A stretch of 64,000 nt of DNA from Fermentimonas sp. (GTDB taxonomy: Bacteria; Bacteroidota; Bacteroidia; Bacteroidales; Dysgonomonadaceae), in contig JADMKP010000008.1 of the NCBI GenBank assembly GCA_015478775.1, forward strand, positions 310,076 through 374,075. Direction: 5' to 3'. Positions 16,701 through 42,550 of the stretch are shown piece by piece. The position numbers were made by a program, and so were the translations under genes. The notes below the pieces were generated by a model. That model saw only the letters and a list, made by a program, of their open reading frames with translations, ran no database searches and was not told the origin of the DNA. The stretch's first letter is position 1; the number at the start of each line of letters is the position of its first letter.

Positions 16701-17662
16701 TAAAATCACTTGTCGAGAATCACACCGGAAAAATTAAGGTATATAGCGAACCCAATTATACAATATTCACGGTCACAATACCATACGTAAAATCGTCGCC
16801 CAACCTATCCTCGCTCACCGACGATCTACTGGATGAAGACATAATCCTCTCAGAAGAATTTGATTATCAAGATCAGGACGACAAAAAGGAGTTTGTGAAT
16901 ACACTACTTATAGTAGAAGATAATTTAGAGATGCTCAACTTCCTGAAGAATAATTTCGCGCGTCTCTACAATGTACTCACCGCCAAAAACGGCAACGAGG
17001 CACTAGCCCGTTTAGAAGAAAACACCATTATAGACGTAATCATCACCGATATATTAATGCCCGAGATGGATGGCGTGGAGCTATGCAAGGCAATCAGGTC
17101 GATGACCATGTTCTGCCACATACCCATCATTTTGCTTACTGCACAAACCGATATACGCTCAAAAACCGAAGGACTCGATTACGGTGCCGATGTTTTTATC
17201 GAGAAACCCTTCTCTCTAGAGTTTCTAAAAGCACAAGTTGCAAGCATCATAAAAAACCGCAACCAGCTAAAAGAGGTATTCACCACATCACCGTTTATAC
17301 CGCCACAAAGCATTGCACACAACACATACGATATTGAGTTTCTAACCAATATCAATAAAATAATTATGAACAACCTGTCGGAGTCGGGCAACATTATAGA
17401 AACCCTGGCAAACGAAATGGCTATAAGTCGCTCAAGCCTTCACAAGAAAATAAAATCCATCTCCGGCATGACGCCCAACGACTATATACAGCTCATCCGC
17501 CTCAAAAGAGCAGCCGAACTACTTAGTGGCAACGAATATCAAATCAGTGAAATTGCATATCTGGTAGGATTCAACAGTCCCTCATACTTTTCCAAATGCT
17601 TCTATAATCAATTTGGAATGCTGCCGAGGGATTTTGTGATGAAGACGAAGGTTGAGAGTTGA
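13736..17662 (+). CDS. Hybrid two-component system sensor kinase/response regulator (HTCS)
   Basis: The 1308-residue protein combines sensor and regulator. In order: signal region; two seven-bladed regulator propellers (~25-640) with repeated W-GT motifs (VMWFGTKEGLNCYN, ELWVGTDEGLYI); Y_Y_Y domain (~660-740, YYLEGHEEEWLHTT); one transmembrane helix (~755-775); histidine kinase with phospho-acceptor His ~806 (FTNIIHEIRTPLSLIKAPLE) and ATPase N box (NLLSNALKYA) and GSGIGLALVKSLVENHTG; receiver with Asp ~1105 (VIITDILMPEMDGVELC) and Lys in IEKPFSLEFL; C-terminal AraC-type helix-turn-helix (SEIAYLVGFNSPSYFSKCFY). HTCS proteins bind a glycan fragment in the periplasm and activate an adjacent SusCD operon, here the divergent one. 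ATG at 13745 is an alternative start. Confidence 0.95.
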   Translation: MCNMNYFLASILSLFMLSSMSGVNESLSHNSVWVMLQDSRGVMWFGTKEGLNCYNGYDNTVYKYDPSDSHSLGNSFIRALYEVTPGEELWVGTDEGLYICDIPNGEFTRFNVSTPDGTIINGTVNAITKIHDDLWISEIDKGFYRYNLSNGDLKFYPTGKFHWSIATDNYGSIWVASFEGGVYRYNRQTNSFLFSAINNEGVVNSDYDTRSFFYDAINDCMWIGTFIKGIVRYDFKTHKWSEYQINDGSDLLYEINSITMYSSNELALGTEKGLYSFNTISHKFEKQANIQSIFSLIHDREGGIWAGTYYDGVQYLSPGYKAIIQHTIPDTQGRVVSAFVTDQNDKNKIWISARDVLGGLTRYDKLTGDYVEFDNLMPYHNIRSLSYFDNALWVGTYSNGMIKIGDNGRTQHFSRTEGNFTTLSHNSVYSIFQASDKTIYVGTIMGLDIYDPVNNVFTNVPEIRNTRVHSIIEDHLGLIWVATYQQGLYCYNPATDTWVSYRHNHEKGSLPSDRLICLYGDKQQRLFIGTEGAGMCRFNYQTQTFEPISDQISISTGIICSIVGDEQGNLWISKSNSINKIDIENGKIQVLEESIGMKGNYYTYNSSYIDGDGLLYFGYTGGYVTINTSLLTTLKVPPRLMLTGVRNYENLTEYDYTKPITIGPYNPSINFNFVALSYKFPAHNSYTYYLEGHEEEWLHTTTNRSASYINLPPGKYRFHLKAANSDGVWADESEWISLPLTVKKVIWQRNFMIILYIAFLLLLIYFTIYLSRKKEGKKLEDKMTHYQIEKDKELYKRQIQFFTNIIHEIRTPLSLIKAPLESIIQTSTANEETSENLQVMDRNVERLHTLADQLLDFRKIEQNTIVFNFKPHDLREIVQRVSYRFKAACRLKSIDYEESLPEEPLICSVDSEAINKILSNLLSNALKYAVSKIKVQLTRTDKNISLEVINDGSHIPEKYWESIFQPFFQVNEDKDIFRKEGSGIGLALVKSLVENHTGKIKVYSEPNYTIFTVTIPYVKSSPNLSSLTDDLLDEDIILSEEFDYQDQDDKKEFVNTLLIVEDNLEMLNFLKNNFARLYNVLTAKNGNEALARLEENTIIDVIITDILMPEMDGVELCKAIRSMTMFCHIPIILLTAQTDIRSKTEGLDYGADVFIEKPFSLEFLKAQVASIIKNRNQLKEVFTTSPFIPPQSIAHNTYDIEFLTNINKIIMNNLSESGNIIETLANEMAISRSSLHKKIKSISGMTPNDYIQLIRLKRAAELLSGNEYQISEIAYLVGFNSPSYFSKCFYNQFGMLPRDFVMKTKVES

Positions 17663-17984
17663 TGGGAGTATTTCCATTCCTCCATTATATTAATTATACA
17701 GTGGAACAAATAAGTGATCGAGGGAATCTTTTTTAATTTTAATAATTCTGAACCCCGATTTTGCTTCCCCCAATGGTCTTCATTAAGTAATACGATGAAA
17801 TATAAGATATGCGATATTCTTTTTCAATTCGACTATCTTAACGAGCCAGCTTTATTTTATAAATGTAAAATATTATATAATGAGGGAAAAAAGGAATCGC
17901 AAAAAACATTTATGATAGTTTTTGCATAGAGTACCAAAACTCATTGGGCTTACCATATGCCATATCATTTATGAATGTATGTAA

Positions 17985-18155
17985 AATGAAGCCGGAGTTT
18001 TAGAATGCTTTTTGAGTAGTTGCCACTATCCAACCTTTGGTGATACCTCATATGCACATGGCCGTGAGATGAGCTATTTACGCGCATCTGTTTACACAAC
18101 CGTTGTACATAAGAGAGTAGGTACTTCCGTACGTTGTGTAAGAGACAACTACTGA
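17985..18155 (+). pseudogene. Remnant of a fibrobacter succinogenes major paralogous (FISUMP)-type domain, C-terminal end
   Basis: The plus-strand frame at 17985-18155 ends in RVGTSVRCVRDNY, which resembles the C-terminal G-SVRCVRD signature of FISUMP surface domains. Only ~56 codons remain open; a stop lies directly upstream (TAA at 17982) and no start or signal peptide is present. Intact family members are secreted lipoproteins of 200 residues or more. I read it as a decayed fragment; the identification rests on the short C-terminal motif. Confidence 0.5.
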
Positions 18156-18234
18156 TATAATTTATTAGTTCATGAATGAAATGAACGATATTTAGCAAAC
18201 TTCTTTTTTAGATTATCAAAAATTAGATGTTTTA

Positions 18235-18463
18235 GTGAAGTTTGTGAAGTTTGTGAAGTTTGTTATTCAAACTTATTTTTTTAAACCAGAAAAAAGTAAT
18301 TTTTGTGAATCATGAATTGAGGTTGATTATGTGAATTACGTGAACAATATAGGTTTTTATAGATGTAAAAATAAATATTAATACATTATTGTTAATAAAA
18401 ATTAGCTATATAATTAAATTAAAAAGTTTTGATTATATTCTTCACAAACTTCACAAACTTCAC
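18235..18463. repeat. Perfect 24-bp inverted repeat built of 9-bp units
   Basis: Three tandem copies of GTGAAGTTT occupy 18235-18261. The reverse complement, CTTCACAAA-type units at 18440-18463, pairs exactly with 18235-18258. The arms are separated by 181 bases of AT-rich DNA with no gene. More GTGAA words follow the left arm (18305-18345) and more TTCAC words follow the right arm (18548-18672), so the symmetry extends beyond the perfect core. Function unknown. Confidence 0.85.
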
Positions 18464-18794
18464 CGATGCTCTATAACCCTTATGTCTGCAATGTTTCAAA
18501 ATAGACCTAGGTAAAAATATCAATAAAATTGGTGTATTTTAGTGCACAGACTTCACTTTTTCTTCACCTCAAATGTTAATTGTAACCAGTTGCTCCCTTA
18601 TAATAGTATGTTATATTATTCAAATTATATATTAAAAAAATTATTGTTTGATTTCTCGTTCACTTCATTCACCTTATTCATCCAACAAATGTAAAATAAA
18701 CAATAAATAGTTTAAAATACTACGCTAAGCTCTCTTTAATTAACTATTGATACTTTTTAAATTCACTGTAAAAAAAAATAGAAAGTTTAGAAAA

Positions 18795-18830
18795 TATGCT
18801 TCATATGCTTCATATGGTTCATATGGCTTC
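18795..18830 (+). repeat. 9-bp tandem direct repeat array
   Basis: Four contiguous units: TATGCTTCA, TATGCTTCA, TATGGTTCA, TATGGCTTC. It lies 148 bases before the DUF6266-type start codon and shares the 9-base period of the inverted repeat at 18235-18463, although the unit differs. Confidence 0.8.
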
Positions 18831-18977
18831 AAAATCATACATTCTCCGTCCTTCGCTCGGATCCTCCTCGAAAATTTCAATGAGAATCCAGCCAAAGTCC
18901 AGCCCATCTCGTCACTTAAAAGCATGGCAGTTCTCATAATTTTTACTATATTGTGCTTATTATAAAATATTGATATC

Positions 18978-19696: not shown

Positions 19697-20494
19697 ATGA
19701 AAAAGTTCGAAGGAAAAACAATAGTTATCACCGGAGCAGCAGCAGGCTTAGGATATGCAGCAGCAGAGAATCTAGCATCGCAGGGAGCAAACTTATCATT
19801 GATAGATTATAATGAAGAAACACTGAAAGAAGCCGAGCAACAATTATTACAAAAGTATTCCGGAATAAAGGTTTTGGCTATTGTAGCCGATGTATCAGAT
19901 GAGGCGGCTGTAAAAAATTACGTAGATCAAACCGTAAAGGAATTTGGCACCATAGATGGGTTTTACAACAATGCCGGTATCGAAGGAAAGCAAACCCCGC
20001 TGATAGAATATGACACAAATATATTCAAAAAAGTAATCGATATTAATCTCCTTGGCGTATTTTACGGAATGAAATACATAATACCGGTAATGATCAAAAA
20101 TGGAGGAGGAAAAATTGTTAATGTATCGTCGGTAGGCGGATTAAGAGGAGTGTTGAATCAAGCGGCCTATGTAGCCACCAAACATGCCGTGGCTGGATTA
20201 ACCAAACAGGCGGCGCTTGAATACGGTTCGGATGGCATATTAACCAACGCCATTGCACCCGGCGCCATTATGACACCCATGGTGGAAGAGGCCTTCAGAC
20301 AAGTGAATCCAGATAACCCCGAAGCGGCCGAAAAAGAATATGCAAGCCGTAATCCCGTCAAACGATTGGGAACTCCAGCAGAAGTTGCTAGTGTAGTAAG
20401 TTTCTTGCTGAGTGATGATAATGGTTACCTCAATGGTCAGGTTATCGCAATTGATGGTGGGGAGGCTAATTTTTATGGGAATGAAAAGAAGTAA
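19697..20494 (+). CDS. SDR family NAD(P)-dependent oxidoreductase
   Basis: The 265-residue classical short-chain dehydrogenase has the cofactor motif TGAAAGLG near the N-terminus, the NNAG motif, the catalytic Ser (IVNVSSVGG), the YxxxK pair (AAYVATKHAVAGL) and the C-terminal GQVIAIDGG. The Asp in LSLIDYNEE after the second strand suggests NAD preference. It is complete, unlike the genes that follow. Substrate cannot be assigned; glucose 1-dehydrogenase or cyclohexanol-type relatives share this pattern. It has no clear operon partner. Confidence 0.9.
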   Translation: MKKFEGKTIVITGAAAGLGYAAAENLASQGANLSLIDYNEETLKEAEQQLLQKYSGIKVLAIVADVSDEAAVKNYVDQTVKEFGTIDGFYNNAGIEGKQTPLIEYDTNIFKKVIDINLLGVFYGMKYIIPVMIKNGGGKIVNVSSVGGLRGVLNQAAYVATKHAVAGLTKQAALEYGSDGILTNAIAPGAIMTPMVEEAFRQVNPDNPEAAEKEYASRNPVKRLGTPAEVASVVSFLLSDDNGYLNGQVIAIDGGEANFYGNEKK

Positions 20495-20497
20495 CCT

Positions 20498-20713
20498 TTG
20501 TTGCCATATGAAATGAAAGATATGTATAGTTTGGCAAAAGAAGTAGTGGCGCGATCGGTAACAGTGCCGGGTGTTCAAATGATTCTTAATAATGATAAAT
20601 GGCTTTTTTCACCTGCATACGATTTACTAAATGTAATTTCTTTTTTGTCAGATGATTATAAAAAAGATTACTCAGATACCATAAAAGAACATGTTTCTCG
20701 CTTTAAATACTAG
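20498..20713 (+). pseudogene. HipA-type serine kinase, in-frame remnant with two internal deletions
   Basis: Only 71 codons, starting TTG. Three pieces of HipA-type proteins appear in the right order with the rest missing: the N-terminal lobe start (LAKEVVARSVTVPGVQ, where intact relatives continue with PKLSL), the C-lobe motif WLFSPAYDLLNV, and the last residues (SFLSDDYKKDYSDTIKEHVSRF). The catalytic Asp and ATP-binding parts are gone. HipA toxins are ~300-440 residues and are paired with a HipB antitoxin, which is not seen here. The reading frame has survived both deletions, but the product cannot be a kinase. Identification is from motif order. Confidence 0.65.
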
Positions 20714-20730
20714 TTCTTAGCCTCAATCTG

Positions 20731-20874
20731 ATGGAGATTCGTGTTTATACAAACACATTGCAGGCAATTGCGGTGGGTTATCTCATTGCTGCAATGATGA
20801 TACTCCATATTTCTAAACGTTGGCAAATTATAATAACACTTTTACTATTGATAAGCTCTATCTTTGTGAACTGA
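20731..20874 (+). pseudogene. COG4299/DUF5009-like membrane protein, copy A, 5' fragment
   Basis: An ATG-started frame of 47 codons contains NTLQAIAVGYLIAAMMILHI and a second hydrophobic stretch (QIIITLLLLIS), as in heparan-alpha-glucosaminide N-acetyltransferase-like membrane proteins (COG4299, DUF5009). From 20777 to 20862 the DNA closely matches 22599-22680. After 20862 the similarity stops and the AbiE-like genes begin. The missing 3' end of this copy reappears at 21898-21969. Confidence 0.6.
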
Positions 20875-20919
20875 TAACATCAAAAATTAGTGTTATTGGT
20901 TCACGAATGAAAGGAGTAG

Positions 20920-21324
20920 AATGCCAAGCCAGGTTATAATCCCCTTGAGTTTGCCAACCTCCTTTACACTCCATCTTATATCTCTTTAGAGTATGTATTA
21001 CAACAGGCTGGAGTTGTTTTTCAGTATGATTCGCGCTATACAAGTGTGAGTTATCTTAGCCGGGAGGTAGAGGTTGATGGCAATACTTTCAGTTATCGCA
21101 GAATCAAAGAGGATATAATAATAAATATAATAGGTATTATTCGTAAGGATAATATTAATATAGCTACACCAGAAAGAGCATCTCTGGACGTATTGTATCT
21201 CTATAAAGATTATTATTTCGATAATCTTAACCCACTCAACAAGCTTCTAATCTCACAGATTCTTCCGGTTTATCAATCGGCAGCATTAGAAAAACGAGTA
21301 TTTAAAATTCTTGAAAATGGTTGA
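20920..21324 (+). pseudogene. AbiEi-type antitoxin (type IV toxin-antitoxin), 5'-truncated
   Basis: The frame is open from a TAG at 20917 to 21324 and lacks a start at the proper place. It reads like the middle and end of AbiEi-family antitoxins: NPLEFANLLYTPSYISLEYV, then FSYRRIKEDI, then IATPERASLDVLYLYKDYYF. The N-terminal winged helix that binds DNA is missing; relatives have ~60-80 more residues there. In type IV systems AbiEi represses its promoter and counters the AbiEii nucleotidyltransferase. Its end overlaps the toxin start, as usual for the pair. An internal GTG at 21046 could still start a 92-residue product. Confidence 0.7.
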
Positions 21325-21866
21325 TATTAACAAACATAGGTTTTAAAGGTGGTACCGCATTAACGTTCTTTTATGACCTTCCTAGGTTCTCGGTCGATTT
21401 AGACTTCAATCTACTTAATAGTAGCAAAGAGGATATGGTATATGAGAAAGTTCGTAAAATCATTCTTAAACATGGATCTATTCATGATGAGGCTAAGAAA
21501 TTTTATGGAATTATTTGTGTGCTCGATTATGGTATGAGAGAACGCAAGCTCAAAGTAGAGATTTCTAATAGGAATTATGATGACAAATATGAGATAAAAA
21601 ACCTGCTTGGAGTTAATATGCAGGTAATGGTTGCCCCCGACATGTTTGCTCACAAACTATGTGCCGTGCTCGATCGTTCATCTATATCCAACAGAGATAT
21701 TTTCGATTGCTGGTTCTTTATGAATAATAAAACTCCTGTGAATAAATCGATCATAGAAACACGTATGGAAATGCCTTTTACCCATTATCTTCAAAAATGT
21801 ATCGATGCCTTGGAAGCGATGAGCGACAAAGGTATGCTTAATGGCCTTGGTGAGTACGTTACTTAA
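21317..21866 (+). pseudogene. AbiEii/AbiGii-type nucleotidyltransferase toxin with N-terminal deletion and frameshift
   Basis: ATG at 21317 starts MVDINKHRF, the expected toxin N-terminus, but the frame stops at 21346. The body continues in another frame: FKGGTALTFFYDLPRFSVDL carries the GG-T/S and DxD-type nucleotidyltransferase motif, then EISNRNYDDKYEIKNLLG, PDMFAHKLCAVLDR and RDIFDCWFFM, ending in the family-typical NGLGEYVT. About 20 codons between HRF and GFKGG appear deleted. A TTG start at 21321 would give a shortened 181-residue protein. The core motifs are intact, so residual activity is not excluded, but the broken N-terminus and broken antitoxin point to decay. Confidence 0.75.
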
Positions 21867-21897
21867 GTTTTATAAGCAGTTTCCCATTTTTTAAACC

Positions 21898-21969
21898 TTT
21901 GCCAATTTCATGATTCTATTTCTAATACTGAATTTGAGCTATAAATTGAGAGTGTTTGTAAAGATATGA
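21898..21969 (+). pseudogene. COG4299/DUF5009-like membrane protein, copy A, 3' fragment
   Basis: The 23 codons up to TGA at 21967 encode FANFMILFLILNLSYKLRVF plus VKI, aligning residue by residue with the end of copy B (22811-22882, LANFMILFLILNLMYRMRVF). Many differences are synonymous. It is the tail of the gene whose head lies at 20731-20862; the AbiE-like pair lies between. The stretch 21970-22200 that follows holds no recognisable gene. Confidence 0.6.
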
Positions 21970-22200
21970 GGAATGTTTTCCCTTAGATCTTTATCAGAAA
22001 AGAAAGAAAATGTTAAACCTTACTGATAAAAATACAATACTTCCAAATCACCTGCAAATTCCAAGAACAACAAAATTTACTCCATTAGTAAAGATATAAA
22101 GTGCAATTTCATATAAGAGATTATCTTGGTAGTATAATATTTTGTTGTTAACTTTACGTACTGAAGATAAGATAGTATAAATGTATTAAAGCTTGTGATT

Positions 22201-22359
22201 ATGAAATATAAAATAGAAGAAGATAAGAGACAGGTTGCTCGTAGTTTCTTCCTTAAATCAATAGAAGACAAGCGAGCAATTAATAAATGTATAAGAGAAG
22301 GAGGTAATTTAAATAAAGTTATAGATGAGCGAAAAGTTAAATTTTCCGCTCCCATATGA
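22201..22359 (+). CDS. Small conserved-looking protein upstream of the DUF6169-like gene
   Basis: ATG at 22201 opens 52 charged residues: helical and polar, with KSIEDKRAINKCIREGGNLN and a KFSAPI end. There is no signal peptide or membrane segment. The stop overlaps the start of the next reading frame by 35 bases, an arrangement typical of translationally coupled small pairs such as antitoxin-toxin genes. I do not recognise a named family. If the pair is a toxin-antitoxin module, the partner is broken, so this gene may be drifting too. Confidence 0.5.
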   Translation: MKYKIEEDKRQVARSFFLKSIEDKRAINKCIREGGNLNKVIDERKVKFSAPI

Positions 22360-22598
22360 TTATTCCAAGGATGAACTTAATGTATATATTTTATTGAAAT
22401 AAATTATTTTGAAACATCAAAAGCTTATTCATTTAGTTTCGAGAAAGAGAAAGAGGGAGGCAGAAAAACACACGACATAAGAGTTGCAGCTACTATTATA
22501 AGTATTATCAAAGATTTTTTTATAAAAAACTCAGACTCTTTGATATATACATGTGATAATACAGATAATAGGCACCAATCAAGAAAAAAATATATTCA
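22325..22598 (+). pseudogene. DUF6169-like gene, frameshifted and cut at its 3' end
   Basis: ATG at 22325 starts MSEKLNFPLPYDYSKDELNV and stops at 22402. A different frame starting at 22402 continues with similar character (YFETSKAYSFSFEKEKEGGR, IIKDFFIKNSDSLIYTCDNT, ending in HQSRKKYIQ). The order resembles DUF6169 proteins of Bacteroidota: short N-terminus, SFSFE strand, helix, YTCD strand, R-K end. A segment between the pieces is missing, and at 22599 the gene runs into copy B of the COG4299-like fragment. Family assignment is from memory of motifs only. Confidence 0.5.
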
Positions 22599-22882
22599 GT
22601 TATCTCATTGCTGCAATGATGTTACTTCATATTTCTAAGCGTTGGCAAATTATTATAACACTCTTACTATTGATAAGCTATTGGGCTTTGCTCACATTCG
22701 CGGGCGACTTTACAGCAGATGGCAATTTTGCAGAAAGAATAGATCGTGCCAACTCGCTGTTATGGGGATTAGAAAGATACGTGGGCGATTATTACGGAGC
22801 TATACTTACCCTTGCCAATTTCATGATACTTTTTTTGATTTTGAATTTGATGTATAGGATGAGGGTTTTTGTGAAGATATGA
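22599..22882 (+). pseudogene. COG4299/DUF5009-like membrane protein, copy B, truncated
   Basis: An open stretch of ~94 codons with three hydrophobic segments (YLIAAMMLLHISKRW; IIITLLLLISYWALLTFAGD; LANFMILFLILNLMYRMRVF). The layout matches the middle of COG4299 acetyltransferase-like membrane proteins joined directly to their last residues, with the intervening helices missing. Intact family members have ~370-400 residues. There is no start of its own; the frame opens inside the broken DUF6169-like gene. It is the second copy of the fragments at 20731-20862 and 21898-21969. Confidence 0.6.
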
Positions 22883-22972
22883 GGTGATATTTGCAATCTC
22901 AACATAATCACTTTATTTTGTATTCTTAATCACATATTTTAAGCTTGGTGCAACTAATTTAAATGGTAGGTT

Positions 22973-25332
22973 GTGAATACAATATTATTTCTGATAATCG
23001 CTCTCGTAACTGTTCTAATATTTGTTGTAGTATATAAACAGTTAGAAGGAAAGAAGAGGTATACTAATGCTCTTTACTTGCAAAGCTTAGGGCGGATAGC
23101 TATATTTTTCGAATTGGTAAATTCATTTAGCGATTATGTAACCTGGGTGGAGCGTGACATAATTAAAGCTGAATTTTCGGATATTGGTAAATTCTTCAGA
23201 AACAAAACTAATTATTATAAGAAAGAGCCTATTGTTGGGAGGTTCAATGAGGTTTTCCATGATTTTGATGCCTATATTGCTCGATATAACCAAAACTACG
23301 TAAAGGCGCAAAAAATTAAGCTAAAAGAGTATTTTGATAATGTAGAGTGCAAGATGCTTGACGACCAACAGCGTACTGCACTAATTACAGACGAATACTC
23401 AAATTTAATACTAGCAGGTGCTGGTTCGGGTAAAACGCTTACTATACTTGGTAAGGTTAAATATTTAATTGAGCAGAAAGGTGTAGACCCTAAGAATATA
23501 TTACTTCTGTCGTTTACTAAGAAAACCGTAGAGGAGTTGAATGAAAGGTTGCAAAACATTGAGCTTGGTACAAAAGCAACTACATTTCATAAGCTTGGTT
23601 ACGATATAATCAAGAAGCATCATCAATATATTCCGGTACTTACAAATGATAATACTTTAAAATTAGTAATAGAGGAATATCTGAAGAAAGATATATTCAA
23701 TAACCCAACTGCGCTGCAGTCTTATATAGAATATATTGCTTGCTACATGAATATTCCTGAAAAGGATGAGAATTTAGGCTCGTTGGGAGAAAAGCTAGAC
23801 CTGGAAAAAGGTATCGACATGCAAACATTAAAGTCGAAATGCGAACCTTTGAATATTGTGGCAAAAGCTAATCTCGACACAATGAAGGGCGAAAAAGTAA
23901 AAAGTGTTGAGGAGCTTATGATTGCCAATTTTTTATATCTCAATGGAGTTGAATATGAATATGAGAAAACCTATCCATTTGGTCCATCTGTTTATCGTCC
24001 CGACTTTTACTTAACCGAATATAATATCTATTTAGAACATTTTGGTGTAGATGAGCATAATAGGGCGAAATGGCTTACTCCTTTTTATGAACAGAAATAC
24101 ATCGAAGAGATGAAGTTGAAAAGAGAGACCCACAATGCAAACAATACCAAATTATTAGAAACTTATTCATACTATAACAGAGATAAGGTGTTGCTCCAGA
24201 AGTTAAGGCAAATTCTGGAGGATGAGGATGTTGTTTTTAAACCAAGAGATTTTAAGAGTATATACTCTAAAGTGTCTAATTATGACAAAAATTTTGGGAA
24301 GGAGCTCTTTAAACTAATCGAAAGTTTTATCAACCTTAGCAAATCGAGACAATTGAACAACGACTCTTTAATCAGTCTTTTTTCTAGCAATTCTAAACTT
24401 ATAAACGAGTTCTTGTTTGAAAGACAAAGTATGTTCTTGCAGTTTGTAATTCCAATAATAGAGAAATATAACACTGTTTTAGAACAACGTAATGAGATTG
24501 ATTTCAACGACATGATAAACAGAGCTGCTTATATTGTGAAAATGAATAAACCTGATTATAAATATCAGTATATAATTATAGATGAATATCAGGATATTTC
24601 ATTTGCCCGGTTCAATTTAATTAAAGAGATAAGAAATCAGTCAGGATCAATAAGTCGATTTTAGTTTTAGGTCGCCACAGCTTTGATATTAACGAATTGA
24701 TAAAACTTACCCAAGTGAGTAGAGTGAAATACATCGAAAGAACGGGTAAGCTAGTAGTTAAAGGTTTTGAAGATGTTGATATTAGTTACTTGACTATACA
24801 TAAATCTAAAGGGACAGAGGCTGATAATGTTATTATATTGAATCTTAGAAATGATATACTTGGTTTTCCCAACAAAATGACCGACGACCCTATATTATCT
24901 CATTTGCTTAATGATAGCGAAGGGTATAGGTATGCAGAAGAGCGCAGGTTGTTTTATGTGGCACTAACGAGAACCAAAAATGAGGTAGTGTTATTGATTC
25001 CGCCTGAGGCTTCTTCATTTGCCGAAGAGTTGATTAACGAAAATGGTTATATAATAACTTCCAACAACGGTTCACTCAATACTGTAAATTGCACTTATTG
25101 TAAAACAGGGAAACTTGTGCTTAGGAAAAATCAGTTGAATGGAAATCAGTTTCTGGGATGTTCGCATTATCCCGCTTGCAATCGGACCTATAACAACATT
25201 GATATTTTGTTCGATAACATAGTTTGTCCCCATTGTAATAGCGGCTTTATGACAAAGAGGAGAGGGAAATTTGGCAATTTCCTTGGGTGCACAAATTATC
25301 CTGATTGTAGAAAAACCATCGATTTAAAGTGA
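22973..25332 (+). pseudogene. UvrD/helicase IV-type DNA helicase with zinc ribbons, central deletion and frameshift
   Basis: Part one (22973-24664, GTG start) has a membrane helix (~3-22), Walker A AGAGSGKT (Lys ~154), motif Ia (LLSFTKKTVEELNERL), an internal nuclease-like insert (IANFLYLNGVEYEYEKTYPF, YRPDFYL, IYLEHFG), and Walker B IIIDEYQD. It stops at 24662. Part two starts in another frame near 24646 (SILVLGRHSFDINELIKL) and carries motifs V and VI (YLTIHKSKGTEAD, LFYVALTRT) and two topoisomerase-type zinc ribbons (CTYCKTG...CSHYPAC; CPHCNSG...CTNYPDC). The segment holding motifs III-IV (GDDWQSI-type) is absent. Without it the protein cannot be a helicase. Intact relatives are ~900-1000 residues. 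Confidence 0.85.
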
Positions 25333-25776
25333 TAACTTATTACTTTCTTAACAATAACTTATTATTGACATGGAGTGTCATAAAAGCTAACATGTGTATA
25401 TAAATATCATTTTATTTTGATGATTAATAGCCAATTGGTAAATATTACTACTCTGTGGAAAGAAATCCCTATTAAATTAATTAGAAGGAATATAATTCCC
25501 TTTATACGATATTTTGAGTATTTTTGCACATTGAATTAAAAGTACAGCCGACTTGTTATTTTATATAAGACAAATAGTTGCAAATTTACTCAAAGTTAGT
25601 TGTAGTGCGGATCTTTAATCGCACTACATTTGTTTGTATAGATTGAACTAAATAACCACTTGTTGGTTTAAGGACGAGATGATTTATGTGCTTTTGAAGG
25701 ATTACCTCCATTTGAAAGATGGGACAGGTAGTCACGAAGTGTATCCGGACGTGAAAGAATAACTAATATATCACCT
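25333..25776 (+). promoter_or_regulatory. Leader region of the polysaccharide locus with a strong hairpin
   Basis: A -7-like box TATTTTTG lies at 25519-25526 (no clear -33). A perfect 8-bp stem, GTAGTGCG (25602-25609) with CGCACTAC (25620-25627), follows, with a U-rich but interrupted tail (ATTTGTTTGTAT); TACATTTG at 25625-25632 is a second possible -7 box. If transcription starts at the first box, the hairpin lies in a ~240-base leader and could act as an attenuator. A 27-codon open frame at 25679-25762 (MIYVLLKDYLHLKDG...) resembles nothing I can name. The UpxY/UpxZ regulators typical of Bacteroides capsule loci are not present here. Confidence 0.45.
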
Positions 25777-27090
25777 ATGAAAGTTAAAGAAGATATTATT
25801 AATAAAGTAAACCAAGGTAACGAAGTGATAGGAATAATAGGCCTTGGTTATGTAGGTCTCCCCCTAGCAGTAGGTTTTGCCGAAGCTGGTGTGCATGTAA
25901 TTGGATTTGATAAGAACTCACAGAAGGTTGAAATGATTAACCGTGGTGAGAATTATATTGGTGATATCAGAGATGCAGTTCTAAGAGAGGTTGTTATAGA
26001 TACTTTAACTTTAACTGCAACTACAGATTTTACAAGAATAAAAGAGTGTGATGCTGTATTAATATGTGTGCCTACTCCACTAGATAAGTTTCGTAAGCCA
26101 GATATGAGCTATATCGAAAGTGCTTGCACCGAGATAGGCCAACATATGAAACCAGGTACATTCATCTGCTTAGAGAGTACCACTTACCCAACCACAACAG
26201 AGGATTTAATGCTTCCCATCATCGAAAATGAATCAGGATTGAAAGAGGGTGAGGATTTTTGGCTTGCATATTCGCCCGAGAGAGTGGACCCAGGTAATGT
26301 AAACTTCCACACAAAAAATACACCTAAGATTATTGGTGCAATTTCTGAAGAAGGACTAGAAATAGGGGTGAAGATCTATTCAAAAGCTATTGATACACTT
26401 CACCCAGTGAGTTCGCCACGTGTTGCCGAGATGGTAAAGATATTAGAGAACACTTACCGATTGGTTAATATCAGTCTTATAAATGAGCTTGCTCTGTTAT
26501 CTGGAAAGATGGGTATAAACATTTGGGAGGTTATAGATGCAGCTAAAACAAAACCATTTGGGTTTCAAGCATTCTATCCGGGTCCAGGAATTGGAGGTCA
26601 CTGTATACCATTGGATCCTTTCTATCTTGAGCATATCGCCAAGAAATACGACTTCGACCTTTCTATGATACATGCTGCAGGACACATTAATATGCGTATG
26701 CCACATTATATGTATATAAAGATATCAACAGCACTCAATCGACACAAAAAAGCAGTAAATGGAAGCAAGATTCTCTTTTTGGGAGTAGCTTATAAGCCTA
26801 ATATTAACGACGAAAGAGAATCGCCCGCACTAGAAATTATGGATACAGTGAAACACAAAGGTGGCGAAGTGCAGTACCACGACCCACACATTGATAAAGT
26901 AAGAACCCCACACGGACGCAGCTTCAACTCTATGGAACTTTCAGCAGAAACTCTAAGCTCTGCCGATGTTGTTGTACTCACCACTAACCACTCCGCATTT
27001 GATATTGCTTTCATTCAACAACACGCTAAGTTGATTGTTGATTTGAGGAATATGATTAAAGAGGGTGGGGAGAATGTCTATAAATTATAG
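25777..27090 (+). CDS. wbpA: UDP-N-acetylglucosamine 6-dehydrogenase, WbpA type
   Basis: The 437-residue NAD-dependent enzyme oxidises C6 of a UDP-HexNAc to the uronic acid. Visible: Rossmann motif GIIGLGYVGLPLAVGFAEAG, substrate motif CVPTPLDKFRKPDMSY, the EST element (LESTTYPTTTEDL), AYSPERVDPGN, the catalytic Cys region in GPGIGGHCIPLDPFYL, and the C-terminal Rossmann domain FLGVAYKPNINDERESPALE. The GHCIPLDPFYL wording is characteristic of the WbpA branch (UDP-GlcNAc to UDP-GlcNAcA) rather than of UDP-glucose or WecC-type enzymes. It is the first intact gene of the surface-polysaccharide locus. Confidence 0.9.
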   Translation: MKVKEDIINKVNQGNEVIGIIGLGYVGLPLAVGFAEAGVHVIGFDKNSQKVEMINRGENYIGDIRDAVLREVVIDTLTLTATTDFTRIKECDAVLICVPTPLDKFRKPDMSYIESACTEIGQHMKPGTFICLESTTYPTTTEDLMLPIIENESGLKEGEDFWLAYSPERVDPGNVNFHTKNTPKIIGAISEEGLEIGVKIYSKAIDTLHPVSSPRVAEMVKILENTYRLVNISLINELALLSGKMGINIWEVIDAAKTKPFGFQAFYPGPGIGGHCIPLDPFYLEHIAKKYDFDLSMIHAAGHINMRMPHYMYIKISTALNRHKKAVNGSKILFLGVAYKPNINDERESPALEIMDTVKHKGGEVQYHDPHIDKVRTPHGRSFNSMELSAETLSSADVVVLTTNHSAFDIAFIQQHAKLIVDLRNMIKEGGENVYKL

Positions 27091-27319: not shown

Positions 27320-27784
27320 TTGAACGATAGCATGGCTGGGCATGTAGCCTCGCAAGTGGTAAAAACAATGATTCAGAAAGGAATCAATGTAAACAACTCA
27401 CACGTGTTGATGCTGGGCATCACTTTCAAAGAGAACTGCCCCGATGTGCGCAACACTAAAATTGTGGATGTTATTCGTGCCTTGGAGGAGTATGGTGTAA
27501 ATGTATGTGTGTATGACCCTTGGGCAAATCCTGAAGAAGTGTATCACGAATACGGAATAAAACCACTGAACAACATCAATGATGTGCAGAATGGTGAATT
27601 AAACAACGCTCCCCCCTCTGATCACTCATCACTGATCACTGATCACTTATTTGACGCAGTCGTCCTTGGTGTTGCTCACAATGAATTTCTTGATATGAAT
27701 CTTGATGCATTGAAGAAAGATGTGAGTGTGGTGTATGATGTGAAGGGGGTGTTGGATAGTAATGTGGTTGATGCGAAACTTTAA
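27320..27784 (+). pseudogene. UDP-sugar dehydrogenase (TviB/WbpO-like), C-terminal fragment
   Basis: Only the last ~150 residues of a nucleotide-sugar dehydrogenase remain: INDSMAGHVASQVVKTMIQ in its original frame (the fragment's first codon is TTG), then VLMLGITFKENCPDVRNTKI, YDPWANPEEVYHEYGI and DAVVLGVAHNEFLDM. These match the TviB/WbpO branch (UDP-GlcNAc or UDP-GalNAc oxidation). The N-terminal cofactor domain and catalytic Cys (~270 residues) are absent; an in-frame TAA lies just upstream. A block of TGATCAC-type repeats (27618-27647) is inserted in frame, adding the unusual PPSDHSSLITDHL segment. Confidence 0.8.
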
Positions 27785-40667: not shown

Positions 40668-42550
40668 ATGTTTAAACAGGCAGTTCATATTATTAAGAAC
40701 ATGGGAATGCGATACACATTGTATCGCGTTCGTCATGAATTGGAAAAGAGGATAGGGGTACTAAAGAAAAGACACCCAGCTAATCCTCCTTTAAAGAATT
40801 TTATTTCTTTAGCTGAGTTTAGAGATAATACTCCTGCTTTTGTTATATCACCCAGAGAGAGTATTAGTTTTGAGAAACATCCGAATAGTGGACTAAAACA
40901 GAATGCTGAAAGACTAATTAATGGTGAGTTGCAGTTTTTTAATAGCGAGTGGAAGATTCTAGGTAAGGATTATGATTGGGTAACCAATCCTGATAATGGT
41001 TATCGGTATGATACAAGCAAACATTGGTCGGAAATACCCGACTTCTCTTCTTCTACAGGTGATATAAAATTTGTTTGGGAGAAGTTGCGCTTCTCATGGT
41101 TATTGACATTAATCCGGAACGATTTTCATAATGATGAGGATCATTCCGGTTTTGTTTTTTCTGAGATTGAGAGTTGGATTGATGCAAATCCTATTAATAG
41201 GGGGCCAAATTGGCGGTGTAGTCAGGAGACTTCACTGCGTATTTTTAACTGGTGCTTTGCTTTGCATTTTTATAGAGACTCGGAAATTCTAACTGAGGAG
41301 CTTTGGAGTAAGATTCAGAATGTTATTTACTGGTCGCTGCACCATGTGTATCATCATATTGATTTCTCGAGAATTGCTGTAAGAAATAATCATGCCATTA
41401 CTGAGACACTTTTTCTTACTTTAAGCAATATGCTTTTTCCTTTTATTCCTGAGACTGAAAGATGGGCACAGGATGGAAGGAGATGGTTTGAGGAGGAGAT
41501 TGACTATCAAATATATTATGATGGTACTTTTTTGCAATTTTCTATGAATTATCATAGGGTTGTTGTTCAATTGCTTTCTTTAGGGATTTCTGTTGCTGAA
41601 TATAATGGTGAGCCATTTTCTGAGAAGGTTCATGAGAAAGCTTATAAGAGCTTGAATTTCCTTTATCAATGTGCGCAGAATGAGACTGGACATCTTCCTA
41701 ATTATGGACCTAATGATGGTGCTTGGTTTTTTCCTTTATCTGATACGGATTATAGGGATTTTAGACCACAACTGAATGCTTTACATCAACTTCTTACAGG
41801 TGAGTCGCTTTATAATGAAGATGAAGTAACGGAAGAGGCTAAATGGATGAGAGCTTATGAAAGCTTTATAATTAATAGGTTTCCCCCTATAGTGAACAAG
41901 ATGGGGGTTATGAAGTTCCCGTTTGGGGGGTATTATTTAATACGTGAGCAGGATACTTTAATTTTATCAAGTGTGGTCGATATAAAAATCGTCCGACACA
42001 TGCAGATAATTTGCATATTGATATTTGGTATAAGGGTGAGAATGTTTTGATTGATGGTGGTTCTTACAAATATAATACGGATGAAGATACGGTGAAATAT
42101 TTTGGAGGTACTGAGTCTCATAATACGGTTATGTTAGGTGAGCTTGATCAAATGCTTAAGGGTCCTCGTTTTATTTGGCTTAACTGGTCGCAAGCGATTG
42201 GTGTATCCATAACTGAAACAGAAACTGAATTTGTTTTTGACGGTTCTGTTAGTTGTTTTACATACTTGGAAAAGGATATTGTTCACAACAGGAAGATTGT
42301 AAAAACTAAAGGAATACCTGAGTGGTATGTTAAAGATGAGATTTTAAATAAGCCGGAAGGACTAAATATGCGTCAGTTATGGCATAGCCCGGTAGGGACT
42401 GAAACATTTGAGATAATTTCAAAAGATGCAGACAAATCTGTTAAAGAAGGATGGAGTTCTTTGTATTATGGTGTAAAAGAGAATACCGAACAGACTGAAT
42501 TAATTACTAATAACACAATAATTGAAACAACAATTAATATAAAAAAATGA
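40668..42550 (+). pseudogene. Heparinase II/III family protein interrupted by a one-base frameshift
   Basis: Two frames make one ~627-residue protein. Frame one (40668-42050) has the N-terminal helical domain of these proteins: WKILGKDYDWVTNPDNGYRY, LRFSWLLTLIRNDFH, NWRCSQETSLRIFNWCFALH, RNNHAITETLFLT. At 41960 onward the second frame continues (KCGRYKNRPTHADNLHIDIW, NVLIDGGSYKYNTDEDTVKY, GGTESHNTVMLGE), the beta-sandwich with the conserved His. The shift maps to TTTT at 41962-41965; one more T restores the full frame. Relatives in capsule loci are probable polysaccharide lyases that trim or release the product. It may be a true mutation, a phase-variable tract or a sequencing error. Confidence 0.88.

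Follow-up and report, generated by a model that had tools for sequence, protein, structure and literature searches.

A probable gene graveyard left by deletion-dominated decay next to a wbpA-like gene in Fermentimonas

Why are nearly all the genes in one short interval of a bacterial genome reduced to fragments, when the genes directly on either side are whole? This question is raised by a 4.8-kb corridor within a 64,000-nt stretch of Fermentimonas DNA (hereafter the window, C8:310076-374075 of the 2.9-Mb, 13-contig genome G000). Between an SDR oxidoreductase gene and a wbpA-like gene, the corridor carries in order a HipA-type kinase, a NagX-like piece, the toxin-antitoxin genes AbiEi and AbiEii, a second NagX-like piece, a 54-aa open reading frame (ORF) with a DUF6169 gene, a third NagX-like piece, and a helicase gene. 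An earlier, sequence-only reading proposed that a deletion-prone process had eroded a defence hotspot here. We conclude, with a probability of about 0.85, that it is a genuine gene graveyard resulting from deletion-dominated decay, which is a known process. Segments are missing from the genes, the codons that remain contain no stops, intact homologues exist elsewhere, and other AbiE and HipA loci have decayed in the same mode.

The corridor is unusually poor in coding capacity. Just 62% of positions 20495-25776 fall within ORFs of 100 aa or more, compared with a median of 93% in 260 kb of control DNA from the same genome (13 stretches, each of 20 kb, on three contigs). None of the 390 control bins was as low, but these bins overlap, and the effective number of independent bins is nearer 40-50. 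The window bin that begins at 17501 falls even further, to 51%, owing to the almost gene-free positions 17663-18977. Several adjacent genes in the corridor are shortened relative to intact homologues, as is characteristic of a gene graveyard.

The HipA-type kinase remnant (20495-20713, + strand) begins directly after the stop codon of the SDR gene at 20494. Alignment with homologues L102, L104 and L124 confirmed the earlier proposal that the gene has been cut to three joined pieces, with 72 of ~318-322 codons left in a single open frame. The retained segments correspond to residues ~35-64, 215-234, and ~298 to the end, the last of these (approximately the final 20 residues of a HipA_C protein) having been placed by eye against L124. 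The kinase core is absent, with ~150 residues gone between VPGVQ and the MILNN..SPAYDLLNV segment.

The AbiE genes have been damaged at both ends and where they meet. AbiEi (20923-21321, + strand) retains residues ~82-214 of 215 and thus lacks its start, and AbiEii (21330-21866, + strand) retains residues ~33-205 of 236, with the last ~30 residues gone. The loss of ~20 codons from AbiEii described previously corresponds to ~62 nt that are absent from the joint between the two genes when compared with three intact AbiE pairs (G043, G030 and G021). Both members of this type IV toxin-antitoxin pair can still be recognized: the Pfam and PADLOC models for AbiEii both detect its remnant, and the AbiEi remnant is 62% identical to a homologue that matches the PADLOC model for AbiEi. 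A full-length tandem of AbiEi and AbiEii does not occur in the corridor. Because the AbiEi N-terminus, part of the joint, and the AbiEii C-terminus have all been lost, the sequence makes it unlikely that a working pair remains.

Three pieces are left of a NagX-like (COG4299) gene. We use only the name "NagX-like" because the intact homologue in G013 scores 179 bits, well under the curated cut-off of 480 for NagX (NCBIfam NF046061). Numbered on the 385-residue G013 protein, the 5' piece of copy A (20713-20857, + strand) holds residues 127-174, and a 3' piece that belongs to copy A or to a further copy (21894-21969, + strand) holds residues 362-385 and the stop codon. Copy B (22600-22882, + strand) fuses residues ~148-198 in frame to residues 342-385 across a 432-nt deletion. 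Both copies therefore lack their middles, as had been noted from the sequence.

The copies have diverged unevenly. Their 5' pieces (20777-20857 and 22599-22679) differ at 5 of 81 sites, and their 3' pieces (21895-21969 and 22808-22882) at 15 of 75 (Fisher P = 0.015), with 13 of the 20 differences at third codon positions. This pattern may reflect partial conversion. It would also fit a history in which NagX-like pieces served as repeated joints, with recombination both between gene copies and between a copy and incoming DNA, an arrangement that would account for the alternation of the three pieces with HipA, AbiE, DUF6169 and the helicase as passengers. We regard this explanation as rather improbable. 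The pieces are only 75-145 nt long (283 nt for copy B), and although eight other genomes of the genus carry an intact NagX-like gene (at least 50% identity), the stretches fetched around seven of the eight hold no HipA, AbiE, helicase or SDR gene and no second NagX-like copy. In addition, G030 shows a C-terminal scrap of a NagX-like gene, possibly short because of a contig end.

The DUF6169 remnant (22325-22596, + strand) is indeed spread over two frames, as first described, with a short internal loss and a change of frame near 22379-22384, and its C-terminus is gone. Its start is overlapped by the end of the 54-aa ORF (22195-22359, + strand), which matches no family, is possibly whole, and might be the leading gene in a two-gene system. 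The largest remnant is a UvrD-type helicase gene with C-terminal zinc ribbons (22973-25332, + strand), present as ORFs at 22973-24664 and 24697-25332. Relative to an 888-residue homologue (L022), it matches residues 18-557 and 662-888; residues 558-661 (104 codons) were lost together with the reading frame near 24649. The internal removal reported for this gene is thus borne out, and the lost part includes the segment GDDWQSIYRFAGS, which we take to be a helicase motif. At homologous loci, 15 of 16 helicase genes have stop-to-stop frames of 887-924 aa, and the remaining one (L042) is interrupted at 383. A search of the 38 other genomes of the genus found no close orthologue at E <= 1e-40; G024 has a protein that is 31% identical.

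Eleven junctions were counted in the corridor. Six are internal to a gene or operon (two in HipA, the AbiE joint, DUF6169, NagX-like copy B, and the helicase), and the other five join remnants to one another or to the SDR gene. The proposal that most losses are internal and preserve both ends therefore holds for the six internal junctions, but about half of the losses are terminal: HipA, AbiEi and both NagX-like copies have lost an N-terminus, and AbiEii and DUF6169 a C-terminus. A few of the shortened genes keep an open frame: HipA stays open across two joins, copy B across one, and the AbiEii of G034 across its deletion. We give scarcely any credence to the idea that these short forms are working small proteins, given that large middle parts are missing, that frame is kept at three of five single-gene junctions (not significant against an expectation of one in three), and that the forms are absent from any independent strain.

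The claim that the losses are overwhelmingly deletions instead of scattered stops was upheld, in that no premature stop occurs among 1,418 retained codons (piece limits were set from alignments, so that stops created by frame changes at junctions fall outside the pieces). Because 3.2% of substitutions in these codons would create a stop, the pooled neutral divergence since gene death is less than ~0.022 per site (95%), a bound that assumes simultaneous death of all the genes and an immediate end of selection. Over 175 residues, the AbiEii remnant resembles intact copies (0.67-0.73) as closely as the intact copies resemble each other (0.68-0.75), and the sequence comparison therefore indicates that AbiEii probably died recently. 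As regards relaxed selection, AbiEii remnants are conserved to roughly the same degree as intact copies, and too little time may have passed since death for relaxation to show.

How might such a state have arisen? The HipA kinase, AbiE pair, DUF6169 and helicase, which were most likely acquired horizontally, and the NagX-like gene would no longer have been kept by selection, and the unselected genes would have been whittled away as one deletion followed another, each removing between tens and several hundred bases. For the toxin-like genes, this presumes that selection did not act to retain them. The deletions would have come soon after function was lost and are likely to have been illegitimate, arising by slipped-strand or end-joining events. 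The junctions bear on this last point to a limited extent. Short overlaps had been anticipated and are present at the two of 11 junctions that could be read, with TGC (3 nt, 22747-22749) at the copy B junction and ~3 nt, read roughly, at the helicase junction. However, overlaps of at least 3 nt also arose in 6.3% of random 100-499 nt deletions drawn in the same NagX-like gene, and the copy B junction is the only one with a reference close enough for reading at base level, the AbiE and HipA references being too diverged. The end-joining protein Ku scored above the cut-off in 11 of 39 genomes, G000 included, and not in G013 or G024, both of which bear remnants (G024 falling below it).

Additional evidence comes from other copies of the same genes, in a genus survey of decay mode that covered three gene families only. 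An intact AbiEii query gave 12 matches in nine of 39 genomes. These represent nine distinct loci once a G012 copy that runs to its contig end is merged with the identical copy in G013. Only two loci are full length (G030 and G021:C13), and the other seven are remnants. In G000, G024, G034 and G018, both sides of an internal loss are kept and the breakpoints differ, the loss in G018 extending from AbiEi residue 52 through AbiEii residue 146. In G024 and G034, the damage is confined to an internal cut in AbiEii; AbiEi is complete, and the AbiEii frame of G034 stays open. Only C-terminal parts of AbiEii are kept in G013 and G010. No stop lies inside the matched AbiE stretches, apart from a single TGA at the outer edge in each of G030 and G018. 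HipA (at least 44% identity) is full length at seven loci (G005, G036, G020, G031, G013, G030 and G003), nearly so in G021, internally shortened in a second G013 copy, and N-terminally short in G025 and G017. Similar leftovers of the same toxin genes thus exist in relatives, and therefore the corridor seems best attributed to ordinary gene decay with a strong lean toward deletion.

Two side observations concern these AbiEii loci. At G021:C118 (L094 1629-3936), AbiEii residues 19-57 and 57-90 lie ~2.1 kb apart, as might follow an insertion. Furthermore, G013 and G012 (L129 and L130), which are classed as different species, share 1,779 bp of 100% identical DNA that includes an AbiEii remnant and ends at the G012 contig end. 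Such identity suggests that the stretch was transferred recently, is a contaminant, or stems from shared assembly, and therefore the two copies were counted as one event. This is the lone short form found to be shared between relatives, and so we found no set of related strains that maintain the same shortened genes under selection, an outcome that would have spoken against decay.

The pattern in AbiE invites a selective interpretation, in which costly AbiEii and HipA toxins favour deletions that cut them, with these deletions spreading before stops can accumulate. The intact AbiEi beside a cut AbiEii in G024 and G034, along with the lack of stops in matched AbiE stretches, would fit such a history. 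Nevertheless, AbiEi is also damaged in G000 and G018, the NagX-like gene and the helicase share the mode of decay even though they are not known toxins, and selection alone offers no explanation for deletions over stops. We therefore consider this history unlikely. A related and equally doubtful generalization is that unneeded toxin and defence genes of this genus are erased deletion-first, with internal cuts of ~60-900 bases becoming fixed faster than point lesions, perhaps through a mutational process or perhaps through selection for deletions that cut toxins. If it were true, the AbiE operons of the genus would constitute a natural record of the process.

Several points weigh against deletion-dominated decay as the full account of the corridor. 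The search turned up no close relative with an intact corridor, so the order and number of events were pieced together from distant homologues, most of which share 45-75% protein identity. A second HipA copy in G013 combines an internal loss with one stop, and the absence of stops in the corridor is more extreme than has been published for Salmonella pseudogenes (PMC2916853). The junctions were also read from assembled sequence alone, in an assembly of 13 contigs, which raises the prospect of a chimeric contig or of collapsed strain variants. An artefact of this kind appears very improbable, because misassembly could hardly create 11 unrelated joins within 4.8 kb and leave the frames otherwise clean, and like remnants are also present in G013 (one contig) and G024 (three contigs).

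A deletional bias in bacteria was reportedly described by Mira, Ochman and Moran in 2001. The corridor lends itself to comparison with well-studied pseudogenes elsewhere. In Salmonella, pseudogenes were found to erode chiefly through deletions (Kuo and Ochman 2010, PMC2916853), and the corridor resembles what is described there in its deletion-led loss from unselected genes and in the placement of remnants between intact genes. However, according to the same account, the lesions most often met there include short indels and premature stops, and few pseudogenes have lost >20% of their length (PMC2916853). Losses in the corridor range from ~12% (helicase) to ~80% (NagX-like copy A and HipA) without a stop, and every remnant except the helicase has lost >20% of its length. 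The lean toward large deletions is therefore stronger than described for Salmonella pseudogenes. The contrast may arise because large deletions are more frequent here relative to substitutions, because selection favours ridding the genome of toxins quickly, or because the sequence-only reading singled out a conspicuous locus. Among wild-type E. coli accumulation lines, insertions are in excess among large variants (PMC10292909), and therefore a lean toward deletion is not universal. No paper among those listed in literature searches deals with deletion-first decay of AbiE or with pseudogenes of this genus. With its large deletions and almost no point lesions, the corridor is a well-preserved graveyard and a test case for measuring the ratio of deletions to substitutions, for which the recurrent AbiEii cuts across the genus provide replicates. 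Were the same ratio to emerge from a broader census, it would say something about the speed at which toxin and defence genes disappear once they no longer pay.

Is the corridor also a hotspot, as the sequence-only reading proposed? Degraded toxin-antitoxin and defence genes do occur in variable regions, and the corridor resembles such regions in having AbiE, HipA and helicase remnants side by side. It differs in that no intact defence gene lies between the flanks and in that non-defence genes decay too. The description of its contents as toxin, defence-like or DNA-processing genes fits the HipA, AbiE and helicase remnants; a NagX-like gene and, beyond the corridor, a UDP-sugar dehydrogenase gene have also decayed. 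A search for the corridor, or for its two flanks together, covered 60 relatives and 38 other genomes of the genus, with only four and seven first-look candidates, respectively, scored per genome, and gave matches to single genes or pieces only. DNA from the SDR-wbpA interval matched in some part in 22 of 61 genomes (its own included), and no match spans the corridor. The SDR and wbpA-like genes were not found together in any relative examined. Every corridor gene has an intact homologue elsewhere. The intact versions anticipated at the same locus were not seen, since no relative examined carries the corridor, but such versions are a helpful and not a required feature of a gene graveyard.

The flanking genes can nonetheless be traced separately. 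The SDR gene has a full-length DNA match only in G036 (88%), where it is followed by a GH92 gene. The wbpA-like gene has 86% DNA identity in G013, where the next gene upstream encodes a TonB-receptor plug domain, and 76% in G004, where the match begins ~650 bp into the contig. Fic and HTH/IrrE-like genes flank the NagX-like gene of G013 (L081 6218-10166 for this group of genes), which shares a strand with wbpA and lies 22 kb upstream of it, and 2.5 kb from the NagX-like gene is a GH92 gene whose 88% orthologue is the one adjoining SDR in G036. Given the Fic and HTH/IrrE-like genes and the shared GH92 gene, the wider neighbourhood may therefore be common to these genomes and variable. Thus, the SDR, NagX-like, GH92 and wbpA-like genes may once have been neighbours in a region that took up toxin-like genes. 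In G000 itself, the only GH92 homologue at the cut-off used is 38% identical and lies on another contig. Six further GH92 stretches (G008, G062, G034, G061, G007 and G027) hold no SDR, NagX, HipA, AbiE or helicase gene.

A hotspot would mean that this neighbourhood repeatedly gains toxin or defence genes, which are then worn away by a deletion-prone process, and this proposal is partly compatible with the deletion-dominated decay that we favour. Of the gene groups, three or four resemble toxin or defence genes, the helicase lacks a close orthologue in the genus at the threshold given above, the corridor is the locally emptiest region, and the G013 arrangement slightly raises the odds. Set against this evidence, HipA, AbiE and the helicase were never seen between or beside SDR, NagX and wbpA in relatives (15 stretches), and the further GH92 stretches hold none of the corridor genes. 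Sugar genes have decayed as well, AbiE remnants at unrelated loci share the same decay mode, and the window contains no tRNA gene (no search was made for integrases or other mobility genes). Two genomes, G013 and G036, are insufficient to establish a hotspot. We therefore treat the proposal as a tentative minority view, hinted at by the neighbours of NagX in G013.

The immediate flanks are intact, as stated earlier: the SDR gene (19697-20494, + strand) retains its 88% DNA identity to G036 through the stop codon, and the wbpA-like UDP-sugar dehydrogenase gene (25777-27090, + strand) encodes a protein 93% identical to that of G013. Just past the latter lies the remnant of a second UDP-sugar dehydrogenase gene (27320-27784, + strand), of which only the C-terminal third is left. 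Farther along, a heparinase II/III gene (40668-42550) is present in two overlapping frames and is broken near 42011-42050, through a small frameshift or a sequencing error. Together with the gene-poor DNA at 17663-18977, these two genes mean that the corridor flanks are not healthy bounds, and that the decayed zone is wider than the corridor and includes non-defence genes.

The upstream part of this zone (17663-18977) is AT-rich. A Pfam search of positions 17985-18152, which resemble a stretch of G013, gave no match worth keeping. Five tandem arrays with a 9-bp period occupy positions 18235-18831, all within 600 bp, and two of them (GTGAAGTTT and CTTCACAAA) are reverse complements of each other up to rotation. 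Immediately beyond the arrays, the stretch at ~18832-18902 is repeated on two further contigs of the same genome, with 86-91% identity over 54-71 bp.

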